Below, one piece after another: positions 4,472 to 10,716 of a stretch of DNA of 11,661 nt. Position numbers and translations under genes: made by a program. Positions within the stretch are counted from its first letter, which is position 1. Each line of letters opens with the position of its first letter. The notes beneath the pieces are model-generated. The model did not search any database. It saw only the letters and a list, made by a program, of their open reading frames with translations, and had not been told where the DNA came from. The stretch is from NCBI GenBank assembly GCA_913058165.1, contig CAJXQV010000018.1, positions 1 through 11,661 on the forward strand, written 5' to 3'. The DNA is from an uncultured Chromatiales bacterium (lineage in GTDB: Bacteria; Pseudomonadota; Gammaproteobacteria; Steroidobacterales; GCA-2729495).

Positions 4472-4585
4472 ATGCTCGGCTGCTTGAGGTCCTCGCCAAC
4501 TGCCGTATCCAGATGCTTGTCGGAACTCCTTACATATAAGGAAGATTCACAAGCCTTTGTTTCTAATGGATAATCGAAGCAGTTC

Positions 4586-4601
4586 TGTGATGCCTGTCAC
4601 G
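4586..4601. promoter_or_regulatory. CRP/Vfr-like dyad
   Basis: TGTGA-TGCCTG-TCACG matches the CRP-family core TGTGA-N6-TCACA at 9 of 10 positions. It is centred about 217 bases before the predicted small-RNA start, so it would act at a distance or on another transcript. A second dyad, GTGA-N8-TCAC (4713-4728), has the wrong spacing for CRP. Confidence 0.35.
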
Positions 4602-4607
4602 ATAGTG

Positions 4608-4672
4608 CTGCGCCAGCATGTCGAAAAAAAAGACAATACGCCAAAATGCCCAGTGAAGAACCGCTGGCGCAG
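4608..4672. repeat. Twin inverted 10-mers, candidate sigma54 activator sites
   Basis: CTGCGCCAGC (4608-4617) recurs perfectly as GCTGGCGCAG (4663-4672), 55 bases away, or about five helical turns. The left copy is itself near-palindromic (TGCTG-CGC-CAGCA, 4606-4618). The copies are centred near -197 and -142 relative to the predicted start at 4810, within the usual range for enhancer-binding-protein sites. Which activator would bind is unknown; it does not match the NtrC consensus TGCACC-N5-GGTGCA. A long-range RNA stem is the alternative reading. Confidence 0.5.
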
Positions 4673-4730
4673 AGCATAACGAGCGGTCGCCGCGCATCGC
4701 CTGGGGGAAATAGTGAGACTGGCATCACAC

Positions 4731-4743: not shown

Positions 4744-4783
4744 TTCCGACTTTAGTTAAATCGAAGCACTTACGACATTTAGC

Positions 4784-4799
4784 TGGCACGCATTCTGCA
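4784..4799 (+). promoter_or_regulatory. Sigma54 (RpoN) -24/-12 promoter
   Basis: TGGCACGCATTCTGCA matches the consensus TGGCACG-N4-TTGCW at every fixed position except one (C for the first T of TTGC). The GG and GC pairs have the correct spacing. Transcription should start about 12 nt past the GC, near G4810. No ATG or plus-strand protein gene follows; a structured segment and an intrinsic terminator do. Confidence 0.75.
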
Positions 4800-4809
4800 A
4801 GATACAAGT

Positions 4810-4929
4810 GACACTAAAACTCGTATCAATAACAAGAAGGTTTATTTATAAACCCTTGCTTCGCTCTCTGGAGTTTTAGCTCGTCCGTTCCGTGCCAATA
4901 AAACCCGCCGTCAGGCGGGTTCTTTTTTT
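4810..4929 (+). ncRNA. Predicted sigma54-dependent small RNA, about 120 nt
   Basis: The segment lies between a sigma54 promoter and a strong intrinsic terminator. It folds into three elements. CTAAAACTC (4814-4822) pairs perfectly with GAGTTTTAG (4871-4879), a 9-bp stem. Inside it, CAAG-AA-GGTTTA (4833-4844) pairs with TAAACC-CTTG (4849-4858) across a UUUA loop, with an AA bulge. The third is the terminator hairpin. Single-stranded parts are GTATCAATAA (4823-4832), the CU-rich CTTCGCTCTCTG (4859-4870), which could pair with GGAG-type ribosome-binding sites, and a linker at 4880-4901. A poly-U end suits Hfq. It contains no ATG; the only short frame starts at GTG 4808 without a ribosome-binding site. 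By eye it does not match Qrr, GlmY/GlmZ, CrcZ or RsmY/Z. Existence is inferred; the motifs and pairings are seen. Confidence 0.7.
4902..4929 (+). terminator. Rho-independent terminator of the small RNA
   Basis: AACCCGCC-GTCA-GGCGGGTT forms a perfect 8-bp stem with a 4-base loop, followed by C and seven T (4923-4929). In the other direction the hairpin is followed by TTTTATT, so it could also stop transcripts from the convergent hydrolase gene, which ends 130 bases away. Confidence 0.93.
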
Positions 4930-7005: not shown

Positions 7006-7128
7006 TTATAAAGATCATCCTCGTAAACTTCCTGCAGCATCGCAAATTTGAACATCAGCGGCAACACGAACCCATCATTACGACCGATGCAATACAATGC
7101 CAACTCCCAACTGACATACATGGAATCG
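7006..7128. promoter_or_regulatory. Divergent promoter region of symporter and oxoprolinase
   Basis: These 123 bases must hold promoters for both directions. I see no near-consensus -35/-10 pair on either strand, which would fit activator-dependent expression. In-frame TTG (7048), ATG (7087) and ATG (7120) precede the preferred oxoprolinase start, so part of this stretch could be coding. Confidence 0.4.
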
Positions 7129-10100
7129 ATGAGCGATAACTGGCAATTCTGGATTGATCGCGGCGGCACATTCACCGATGTGATTGCCCGCGAGCCCTGC
7201 GGAAAATTACGTATTCAAAAACTGCTGTCAGATAATCCATCGATGTACGCCGATGCCGCTGCCGAAGGCATTCGCCGTTTTCTGAGCAAAGCAGAGTCAC
7301 CTAGGGTCAGTTTTATCAAGATGGGCACAACTGTTGCGACGAATGCGCTGCTCGAACATGCCGGTGAGGCGGTAGCATTGATTACCACCCGCGGCTTTGC
7401 AGATGCATTGAAAATTGGCAACCAGAGTCGTCCGGATATTTTCGCGCTCAATATAAGTAAACCACCGCCGCTCTATGACGCTGTATTTGAAGTCGGTGAA
7501 AGAGTTTCTGCCGATGGCACTGTGCTGCAGGAGCTTGATGAACCCACGGCACGGGATATCTTGGAAAACATCTGTGCTAGCGGCATTCGCAGTGTCGCCA
7601 TATGTTTGCTGCACAGCTATCTGTTTCCCCTGCATGAACAACGACTGTTTGAATTGGCGCGGCAAGCCGGCATTCAGCACATCTCTGTGTCACACCGGTT
7701 AAGTGGCTTACAGCATTTCATCAGTCGTGGACAAACCACCGTAGCCGATGCCTACGTCACTCCGGTGCTCAGCAAATACATTAAAAGTTTTCGGCAGGCG
7801 CTGGCAGCCAATAAACACACACCGGCATACTTTTTAATGATGCAAAGTAACGGCGGCATGGTTGTTGCCGATAAGTTATGCGGCAAAGACAGCATCCTGT
7901 CGGGCCCAGCCGGTGGCATGGTGGGTATGGCAGCCGCAGGCAAGCGCGCAGGCCTGACGCGTCTCATCGGCTTTGATATGGGCGGTACATCCACTGATGT
8001 ATCTGTGTATGACAACGGTCATGAACTCAGTCGCGAAACCGAAATTGGCGGCAGTTTTATTCAAACGCCTATGATCAATATTCACACTATTGCTGCTGGT
8101 GGCGGCTCGGTTCTGAGCTATGCAGACAGTCGCTTGCAGGCAGGCCCCGATTCGGCCGGTGCTTTCCCCGGGCCATTGTGCTATCTGAACAGCGGCCCGC
8201 TGACCGTTACCGATGCCAATCTTCTGACCGGACACATACAGGCAAGCGCCTTTCCAGCTGTGTTTGGTCCTTCGGGCTCCGAGCCCTTAAGTATCGACAG
8301 CGTTAAAGACGCCTTCGCCGCACTGACACGAACCATCAACTCCTCCAAGGGATTGGCATACACCCCAGAACAAACGGCCTGCGGATTTATCCGTGTTGCC
8401 ACCGAGAGCATGGCCAACGCAATACGACACATCACCGGCCAACAGGGGAAGAATCCGGCGGACTTTACTCTGTGTTGCTTCGGTGGCGCAGGCGGGCAGC
8501 ATGCCTGTGCTGTTGCAGAACTGCTGGGTATCAGGCAAATCCTGATTGACCCGTTTGCCAGCGTGCTGTCAGCCTACGGCATTGGAATTGCCCCGGTCAG
8601 CAGGGTTAAGCAATTGACAGTTAACCTACCCGTGGAAGGCGGCACCGAGCAACTTGCCGCAACAATCGACCAACTCCGAGCCGAGTGCGAAGCTGCATTA
8701 CCCGCTCAGGATATCGATCCGGCAACGCTCCGGTCAGTGGCTCGTTTGTTTATTAAAGTTAGCGGTAGCGATAACACCGTGCCCGTGAGCACTCCTATGC
8801 TTGAAACCCTGCGGAAGGATTTTGCCGATGCACACAAGCAACGGTTTGGTTTTTGCCCGGCGATCGACGCCGTTCTTCTAATAGACAGCATCGAAATTCA
8901 AACAACCGCAGAAACCCTGGCGACCACCACAGGCACTCTGGAGACGGAGGCATTGGCGCATGCACCAAGCACTGCTGAGGTCTATCTCGATGATAAATGG
9001 CAGACCATTCCATGCATCACACTCGAATCCATTGTTAGTGGCGAAGAACTCGCGGGACCTGCGCTAATCGTTGAGGCCAACTCAAGCATCATGCTGCCGC
9101 AGGGTTGGAAGGCGCATGTAAATACAGGCCTGCAGCTGTTACTCAACCAGCATGAAACTCGTTCGCAGGCCACTTCTAACCCCGAAGTAGCCGACCCGGT
9201 ATTGCTGGAAATATTCAACCGACGCTTCATGCACATTGCCGCTCAAATGGGTGATGCGCTGCAAGCATCCGCCCGATCTACCAACATCAAAGACCGGCTG
9301 GACTTCTCTTGCGCCCTATTCAATAACGCCGGCGAACTCATCGCTAATGCACCTCATATACCGGTTCATCTCGGCTCGATGGACAGCTGCGTACAAGCCT
9401 TATTAGAGCAGCACCGCAGTGGCTTTATGCAAGGCAATAGCTATATCAGCAACTCGCCGTTCTCGGGGGGCACCCACCTGCCCGACATCACTGTTGTATC
9501 GCCACTGCTCGATGAAACCACCGGCGAGATCCAGTGCTTAATCGCATCGCGCGCGCATCACGCCGATATCGGTGGCATTAGTCCCGGATCGATGCCAGCA
9601 AACAGTCACTCCATTTCAGAGGAAGGTATTATCTTTGATGGTTTTTGTATTGTCAGTGATGGCGTTATGCGTGAGCAGGCTCTGCGTGACCGCCTGACCG
9701 AAGGGTCGCTGCCCGCCAGAAACCCCGAGCAGAACATTGCAGACCTAATGGCCCAGCTGGCGGCCAACACGCAAGGTCAGAGACTCTTTAAAAATCTGCA
9801 GGACGAGATGGGCGCTGCGACAGTGACCCACTATATGGAGCATGTGCTCGATAATGCCGAACAGGTTATTCGTACGGCGATACAAGGCCTGAGCGGCGGC
9901 AGCTATAGCTATGAAATGGATAGCGGCGAAGCGATCACTGTCGCTATACATATCGACCACAGCCAGCGCTCGGCAACCATAGATTTCAGCGGCACCAGTC
10001 CGCAGAGCCCAACTAATTTTAATGCCCCGGCAGCGATATCTAGAGCGGCCGTCATGTATGTGTTCAGAACCCTTGCACAAAAGCCTATTCCACTGAACGC

Positions 10101-10716
10101 GGGTTGCCTGCGGCCATTGACCATTGTGCTTCCGGAAGCATCGCTGTTAAGTCCGGATAACAAGGCTGCGGTTGTGGCAGGAAACGTTGAAACATCGCAA
10201 TGCATTGTCGACACGTTGTTTGCAGCACTTGGCGTATTGGCCGCATCACAGGGCACTATGAACAATCTGACATTCGGCAATGCCATGCACCAGTATTACG
10301 AAACGTTGGGTGGTGGCTCAGGAGCGGGCGCCGATTTTGATGGTTGCGATGCCGTACAAACCCACATGACCAACTCACGACTCACCGACATCGAAATTCT
10401 AGAATCGCGCTACCCGGTAAGAGTGGCCGAGTTTTCGATTCGAGCTGACTCCGGTGGAGCGGGCAAGCATTGCGGCGGCAATGGACTTATCCGGGAGTTT
10501 GAATTTCTCGAGGCTATGGAAGTGTCGATATTGTCGAACCACCGACGCATCGCGCCATTCGGACTGCACCATGGCGGCTCTGCGGCAACCGGAATTAACC
10601 TGCTAAAACAGGGCGAAACCAACAGTGTGTTGAGTGCAACTGCCACAGTGGCAGTGCAGCCCGGTGACCGGGTGCGCATTGTGACTCCCGGCGGCGGCGG
10701 TTACGGCAAGGCGTGA
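7129..10716 (+). CDS. 5-oxoprolinase, ATP-hydrolysing (fused HyuA-HyuB)
   Basis: The enzyme opens 5-oxo-L-proline (pyroglutamate) to glutamate at the cost of ATP. With this start it has 1195 residues, near the size of single-chain oxoprolinases (eukaryotic OPLAH about 1290). The HyuA half (1 to about 600) begins [12 protein letters not shown] (7-18), a phosphate-binding loop; a second actin-like motif [14 protein letters not shown] lies near 281-294. The HyuB half runs from about 688 to the end and holds [24 protein letters not shown] followed by [20 protein letters not shown], and [10 protein letters not shown] near the C-terminus, all typical of the family. ATG 7129 was chosen because homologues start a few residues before [12 protein letters not shown] 7120 and 7087 and TTG 7048 are in frame and cannot be excluded. 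It is divergent from the symporter. A related hydantoinase or oxoamide specificity is possible, but the fused form favours oxoprolinase. Confidence 0.92.

Follow-up and report, generated by a model that had tools for sequence, protein, structure and literature searches.

CrcZ, a nutrient-control RNA of Pseudomonas and its nearest relatives, is, with its companions CrcY and CrcX, the closest described system to the small RNA gene reported here. There are six A-rich stretches in CrcZ, whose first 151 nt bind Hfq at its distal face (PMC4063720). The crcZ gene sits downstream of cbrAB (PMC8871633), and the subsites of CbrB are TGTTAC/GTAACA (PMC6296734). In the portions cited here, the CbrAB system is called exclusive or unique to Pseudomonads or the Pseudomonadaceae (PMC6296734, PMC8871633), and Pseudomonas and Azotobacter are the only hosts named for CrcZ, CrcY and CrcX (PMC8871633).

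Here, we investigated positions 4784–4929 of an 11,661-nt stretch of DNA (the window), which is the whole of contig C18 from an uncultured gammaproteobacterium; its assembly amounts to 1.69 Mb, is 72.7% complete, and is broken into 345 contigs. An earlier note on this DNA had proposed an undescribed sigma54-dependent small RNA at this place. That proposal holds up, as no Rfam family matches and the promoter and terminator are kept in the genus and, with a different RNA sequence between them, in the family. With moderate confidence, we take the segment to be a sigma54-dependent gene for a regulatory RNA that binds Hfq, most likely as a decoy in the family at large and in a one-tract form in the window’s genus.

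The small RNA gene

The gene is positioned 3′ of cysQ and a DUF465 gene, not of cbrAB. Its upstream neighbors are trxA, rhlB, a GMP/IMP nucleotidase gene, cysQ, and the DUF465 gene; downstream, on the other strand, are an alpha/beta hydrolase gene (a weak match) and then a sodium/solute symporter gene. Elsewhere in the window, positions 7048–10716 hold a single long frame that fuses hydantoinase A and B domains. The features of the gene are as follows.

4784–4799, + strand: sigma54 -24/-12 promoter, TGGCACGCATTCTGCA, read from the sequence; invariant in three congeners, with an equivalent in 28 of 29 testable family loci
4810–4929, + strand: predicted small RNA of ~120 nt, from the predicted +1 to the terminator; fold z -3.91, 97/120 columns invariant in three congeners
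4814–4822, + strand: 5′ arm of the closing stem, CTAAAACTC, pairing with 4871–4879
4827–4840, + strand: A-rich motif of the Hfq distal-face type, CAATAACAAGAAGG, (ARN)4, with an excess of AANAANAA; AATAATAAGAAGG in both congeners
4833–4858, + strand: inner hairpin of the predicted fold, in a register that differs among congeners
4871–4879, + strand: 3′ arm of the closing stem, GAGTTTTAG, pairing with 4814–4822
4881–4896, + strand: mostly unpaired element, TCGTCCGTTCCGTGCC, invariant in congeners and counterpart of TCCGCGCCCATCC in relatives
4902–4929, + strand: intrinsic terminator, AACCCGCC-GTCA-GGCGGGTT followed by C and T7, found by consensus scan

The sigma54 promoter consensus is TGGCACGN4TTGCA. 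TGGCACGCATTCTGCA has the GG-N10-GC spacing and a single mismatch to this consensus, so the near-perfect -24/-12 promoter described in the earlier note is indeed there at 4784–4799, and direct reading places the closing stem and terminator just where they had been described. Promoter geometry predicts a +1 at ~4810. The predicted fold of the 126-nt segment 4810–4935 has an energy of -33.4 kcal/mol; 200 dinucleotide shuffles average -21.6 (sd 3.0), and none is as good (z -3.91); when the segment is cut to 120 nt, z is -3.77 and 1 of 200 shuffles is as good. The congener folds have z scores of -2.42 (L002) and -2.47 (L003), each with 4 of 200 shuffles as good.

The Rfam search suggested by the earlier note returned no family match in the window: at gathering score, no covariance model hit, including those of CrcZ, Qrr, GlmY/GlmZ, and NrsZ. 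A relaxed threshold gave 30 matches in the window, all below cut-off, and the best by bits and by E-value fell on the terminator hairpin. In the open-licence literature on CrcZ, the phylogeny of CrcZ/CrcY, sigma54/RpoN-dependent small RNAs, Hfq sponges, and RF01675, the RNA is not described in the titles and abstract starts of the matches listed. This literature yielded nothing on CrcZ outside Pseudomonas, and the matches listed for sigma54/RpoN-dependent small RNAs included a glutamine synthetase 3′ UTR RNA and nothing on the window RNA.

Conservation among congeners

The congeneric loci L002 (95%) and L003 (87%) have the RNA in the same place, and both keep the promoter, stem, A-rich stretch, and terminator. 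Across the three congeners (window, L002, and L003), invariant columns make up 16/16 of the promoter, 13/13 of the 5′ stem, and 97/120 of the whole RNA. The flanks of the same three give 92/139 for the intergenic segment 4601–4739, 66/129 far upstream, and 44/129 in the downstream intergenic region. Checked against these homologues, the -24/-12 boxes and closing stem of the original description are kept, but its 10-bp inner hairpin is not. A hairpin is located at 4833–4858 in the window; L002 and L003 lack its exact 10-bp bulged form and have hairpins of 5–6 bp in other registers at that place. The L002 terminator contains a C-A mismatch. Among the three congeners, the closing stem has no pair that is changed on both sides, and covariation within the genus is therefore uninformative: the stem is conserved, not proven by covariation.

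The CU-rich stretch 4859–4870 had been put forward as an element that could pair with ribosome-binding sites. We do not favor this role, as 9/12 of its columns are invariant in the three congeners versus 12/13 for AATAA[C/T]AAGAAGG and 16/16 for TCGTCCGTTCCGTGCC, a modest difference. A covariance model built from the three congeners (R1) recovered only the genus, with six further matches at 29–35 bits. The R1 match in G010 overlaps L005; L004, L005, and L006 share the terminator only. It was synteny that led to the wider family.

Distribution in the family

An equivalent promoter is found 3′ of cysQ at 28 of 29 testable family loci, whereas the 32 cysQ loci sampled from 12 other families of the order all lack it. 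The 28 consist of 19 from the first 20 regions (L077–L096), six more (L216–L221), and the three congeners; L215 and L234 were too short to count. In 19 of the 20 loci L077–L096, a TGGCA-type sigma54 promoter leads into a segment that carries A-rich tracts, in most cases a TCCGCGCCCATCC-like element, and a GC stem ahead of T7–9. These family RNA segments are terminator-ended, extend 126–241 nt after the promoter, and mostly carry two (AAN)n/(ARN)n tracts. Each copy was taken to end at its first run of at least six T, and a GC-rich stem precedes the T-run in the listed copies. TCCGCGCCCATCC, the counterpart of TCGTCCGTTCCGTGCC, is kept in most family copies, and L085 and L086 are identical over the RNA. 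The cysQ and hydrolase genes lie near each other in many family genomes; the cysQ-hydrolase locus of G002 (L077) has neither promoter nor RNA. A remnant-like GTGTCAAGCATTCTTACA is present at that locus.

Model R2 covers the 3′ part of the RNA, was built from 21 sequences, and uses filters that lose some weak matches. It matches 29 of 40 family genomes and none of the 356 genomes from elsewhere in the order. Training sequences came from 21 of the 29 genomes and none from the other eight, one of which (G018) is identical over the RNA to a training copy. R2 misses the three genomes of the window’s genus and G037, and adding these brings the count to 33 of 40. Among the remaining seven, G002 is negative, and in six (G015, G017, G025, G026, G032, and G036) no full cysQ match was found. 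A sequence-pattern scan of genome contigs returned 33 loci, with A-rich tracts before the match in 17 and none in 16. All but one of the 17 tract-bearing loci also have the promoter, and the exception, L110, ends at a contig edge. These 17 matches come mostly from MAGs labelled Gammaproteobacteria, Chromatiales, or Nevskiales, with a few labelled otherwise.

A-rich tracts and their display

AANAANAA, a sequence of the Hfq distal-face type, occurs 96 times in 21 RNA bodies; over 1000 rounds, dinucleotide shuffles gave 11.5 (sd 3.7) and never more than 25. The window RNA has two occurrences against a shuffle expectation of 0.06 (p 0.003), and its longest ARN run is four (p 0.036); among the bodies, only L079 falls short of significance for AANAANAA (p 0.13). 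The longest ARN run is the weaker evidence, with p < 0.05 in only 13 of the 21 bodies. The window RNA carries one A-rich tract, compared with mostly two in family copies and three to four clusters in the second RNA described below.

Since MAFFT misaligned the tract hairpins, we scored tract stems directly against shuffled flanks. The first tract is looped out by a 5–7 bp stem (p ≤ 0.005) in 10 of 27 RNAs, and the enclosing stems vary among genomes in a compensated way (GCCCG/CGGGC, GCCTG/CAGGC, GGCCC/GGGCC, and ACCTGAT/ATCAGGT). Four further tracts have an enclosing stem at p 0.04–0.05, and 33 of 47 tracts, the window’s included, have none at p < 0.05. In 27/27 RNAs, the tracts are more unpaired than the rest of the molecule (mean 0.86 vs 0.61), which is partly a matter of mere A-richness; the window tract is partly paired in the predicted fold (unpaired probability 0.61). 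The TCGTCCGTTCCGTGCC/TCCGCGCCCATCC element has unpaired probabilities of 0.51–0.98 in the 25 of 27 RNAs that have a pattern match; in a few of these, the pattern matched another AAGCCCA stretch.

Translation starts, called with our own simple gene caller, were searched for A-rich sites. None was found at 312 genes of G019 (400 kb, ~1/8 of the genome; controls 1 and 0), and four were found at 327 genes of the window’s genus (390 kb, pieces of G012 and G011; controls 8 and 9). With no A-rich enrichment here, the targets that a CrcZ-type decoy would free were not seen; the decoy mechanism is thus an inference, and the RNA may act by base-pairing instead.

Hfq and Crc-like proteins

An Hfq gene is present in 12/12 genomes searched. 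The Hfq sequence reads YLVNGIKLQG in nine of these and FLVNGIKLQG in the three of the window’s genus (L189–L191), a change from Y to F at what we take to be the distal-face tyrosine. In G012, a congener that is 98% complete, none of the three PF03372 proteins looks like Crc. L164 is closer to an AP endonuclease (2jc5, 298 bits) than to Crc (4jg3, 230 bits), and it has QE, GDWN, and SDH where Crc has QD, GSLY, and SQH. L171 is closest to exonuclease III 2jc4/6fk4, and L177 is without a PDB match. The L164-like proteins of G003 (by PDB search) and of G007 and G019 (by sequence only) keep the same nuclease residues as L164. As an observation in its own right, L162, L163, L164, and L168 represent a Crc relative that retains nuclease residues, with 2jc5 as the closest solved structure for L163 and L164.

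The upstream control region

The region 5′ of the promoter contains several motifs, which were first spotted in an alignment and then counted in those same loci.

4518–4534, + strand: enhancer-like site 1, TGTCGGAACTCCTTACA, GTCG-N8-KACA; at -265 from the -24 box here, mostly ~-256 in the family
4586–4600, + strand: CRP-like site, TGTGATGCCTGTCAC, GTGA-N6-TCAC; 6 of 22 family occurrences are at this farther place
4619–4635, + strand: enhancer-like site 2, TGTCGAAAAAAAAGACA, GTCG-N8-KACA; at -164 here, mostly ~-155 in the family
4713–4728, + strand: inverted repeat, GTGAGACTGGCATCAC, N8 form at -71; relatives have the CRP-like N6 form here
4749–4762, + strand: conserved element just 5′ of the promoter, here ACTTTAGTTAAATC, aligned with the TTnTGTCAAA-like element of relatives

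GTCG-N8-KACA occurs 49 times in 27 upstream regions, most often around -256 and -155, versus 0.2 in mononucleotide shuffles; the upstream region of L002 has no exact site. GTGA-N6-TCAC occurs 22 times versus 0.09 in shuffles, with 16 occurrences at -69/-70 and six at -188 to -199, and the exact N6 form stands at -69/-70 in 16 of the 27 regions. A TTnTGTCAAA-like element is found at -33 in 19/27, and the window is not matched by that pattern. CbrB half-sites (TGTTAC/GTAACA) are absent from all 27 regions (≤330 nt each), where shuffles lead one to expect 2.5. Two NtrC-like sites were found in the 27.

RpoN is present in 20 of 21 relatives, the sole miss being the window’s own incomplete genome. 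PF00158 matched in 14/14 control genomes, so this domain by itself is uninformative. Reading sequence and neighbors by eye, we count three true enhancer-binding proteins in G012: NtrC, PilR, and a PAS protein. None of the three could be named as the activator; the PAS-protein promoter and the pilin promoter carry different-looking repeats. A PrsR-like protein was found in G000 and G011 and not in G012.

Other sigma54-type promoters were seen along the way. At L141–L143, L139, L138, and L133, ACGGAATTCCGT-like repeats and such a promoter stand ahead of a short frame; at L141–L143, the promoter is divergent from the gene of a PAS-domain enhancer-binding protein, and a miaE-like gene (named by eye) adjoins. 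At L148, L149, L158, and L159, GTGAC...GTCAC-like repeats lie 5′ of sigma54-type promoters near genes for enhancer-binding proteins, and in L148 and L149, pilin genes come after the promoters.

A second RNA

The enhancer-like site at the first RNA led us to a second sigma54-type RNA. In five genomes, TGTCGN7TKACA occurs at 43 places versus 34 for a reversed-pattern control (congeners 5/5, 10/9, and 9/14; G007 9/4; G019 10/2). Sixteen of the 43 places were inspected, and the second RNA lies at four. In G011, G012, G007, and G019, the enhancer-like site is 91–92 bp before TGGCACGNNNNTTGCT. All four loci (L264, L265, L272, and L276) have the gene on the reverse strand, with a sigma54-type promoter at 659, 719, 716, and 708 of that strand, respectively. 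Past the promoter, the predicted RNA runs for 216–236 nt; it contains three to four clusters of A-rich tracts and ends in a terminator. It has a conserved closing helix in which one pair shows a two-sided change (4/24 pairs over the whole consensus). The next frame resembles an ABC-transporter ATPase, by eye, in L264, L265, and L276. The second RNA was not found in the window’s own incomplete genome. At gathering score, Rfam gave no matches in 20 family loci and the four second-RNA loci. Across 802 kb (G019, G012, G011, and the window), at least two AANAANAA lie within 250 nt at only three of 45 promoter-like sites, those of the window RNA, of its copy in G012, and of the second RNA in G012.

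Proposed function and alternative readings

Judging from sequence, the sigma54-type gene, present in most of the family, very probably makes an RNA that associates with Hfq. Conservation, spacing, motifs, promoter, and terminator are read from the sequences, whereas that the gene is transcribed, that Hfq binds, how the RNA acts, and which activator and signal switch it on are inferences. As to its function, we lean slightly toward a CrcZ-like Hfq decoy, in reduced form in the window’s genus. An enhancer-binding protein would switch the gene on from the two GTCG-N8-KACA sites, which lie ~155 and ~256 bp upstream in the family and 164 and 265 bp upstream in the window, probably with a CRP-type regulator alongside and some nutrient signal as trigger. 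The RNA would offer its A-rich (ARN)n tracts to the distal face of Hfq. Family RNAs, along with the second RNA in four genomes, would thereby occupy Hfq and relieve other Hfq-dependent regulation, as CrcZ does, in this case with no CbrB sites and, it appears, no Crc. The copy in the window’s genus would have shrunk to one tract, and its single tract and long closing stem suggest that it may have shifted toward ordinary base-pairing. More tentatively, and with somewhat less than even confidence, we propose that the two RNAs form an independently evolved, sigma54-controlled Hfq decoy system, similar to CrcZ/CrcY and without CbrB or Crc.

A trans-acting base-pairing sRNA under sigma54 control, whose A-rich tract would serve only to tether Hfq while the TCGTCCGTTCCGTGCC/TCCGCGCCCATCC element is the mRNA seed, would account for several of the same observations. 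That element is invariant in the three congeners as TCGTCCGTTCCGTGCC, kept in most family copies as TCCGCGCCCATCC, and predicted to be unpaired (0.51–0.98) in 25 of 27 RNAs; the lack of A-rich enrichment at translation starts fits as well, and a conserved C-rich element next to the terminator suggests the same. However, tethering would not require so many tracts, their looped display, or a tract-rich second RNA that shares the enhancer-like site, and we consider this reading possible but rather doubtful.

We also considered three other possibilities: a 5′ leader, the gene of a small protein, and a promoter that yields no functional transcript. A GTG frame of 23 codons (4808–4879) does overlap the RNA, but it starts 2 nt 5′ of the predicted +1 and is disrupted in L003 by a 4-nt deletion. 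The next long downstream gene is on the opposite strand, and promoter and terminator recur across the family; the three possibilities together seem very unlikely. Least probable in our view is a true, diverged member of CrcZ/CrcY sharing an ancestor with Pseudomonas. Such descent would explain the shared design of sigma54 promoter, A-rich tracts, terminator, and two RNAs in four genomes. Against it, there is no Rfam match at gathering score, with CrcZ (RF01675) reaching 14.7 bits near the second RNA of L264 versus a cut-off of 95; the 27 upstream regions hold no CbrB half-site; the gene neighbors differ; and none of the 32 cysQ loci sampled in 12 other families of the order has the RNA 3′ of cysQ.

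If such an independently evolved two-RNA decoy system is real, Hfq titration by A-rich RNAs would be a recurring way to rewire Hfq regulation, independent of Crc. Family RNAs of CrcZ design that lack CbrB sites, with G012 yielding no Crc, would uncouple the decoy principle from the partners it has in Pseudomonas and offer a natural experiment on whether Hfq is sufficient by itself. The upstream motifs, at their nearly fixed distances, provide a handle on the activator and signal.

Comparison with known systems

Qrr, GlmY/GlmZ, and NrsZ have in common with the window RNA a sigma54 promoter leading to a short, structured RNA with a terminator. Compared by Rfam score alone, all of them stay below gathering score in the window. 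MgrR and other class II Hfq-dependent small RNAs touch Hfq at a second place in addition to the terminator tail. A second contact of this kind is predicted in the window’s family as well; unlike the class II RNAs, family copies have long (AAN)n tracts, some of them in hairpin loops, and a sigma54-type promoter.

The earlier note had stated that the RNA resembles none of Qrr, GlmY/GlmZ, CrcZ/CrcY, and NrsZ, and here we differ. The family RNAs do depart from CrcZ in length (~120–230 nt vs 407), in lying 3′ of cysQ and the DUF465 gene rather than 3′ of cbrB, and in their upstream sites, which include no CbrB half-sites in 27 family regions; the window genus’s RNA also has one tract only. However, like CrcZ, CrcY, and CrcX, they have a sigma54 promoter with upstream enhancer sites and a terminator, family copies carry repeated A-rich tracts fitting the distal face of Hfq, and there are two such RNAs per genome, here in four genomes. 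Although membership in CrcZ fails, the family form has a CrcZ-like design.
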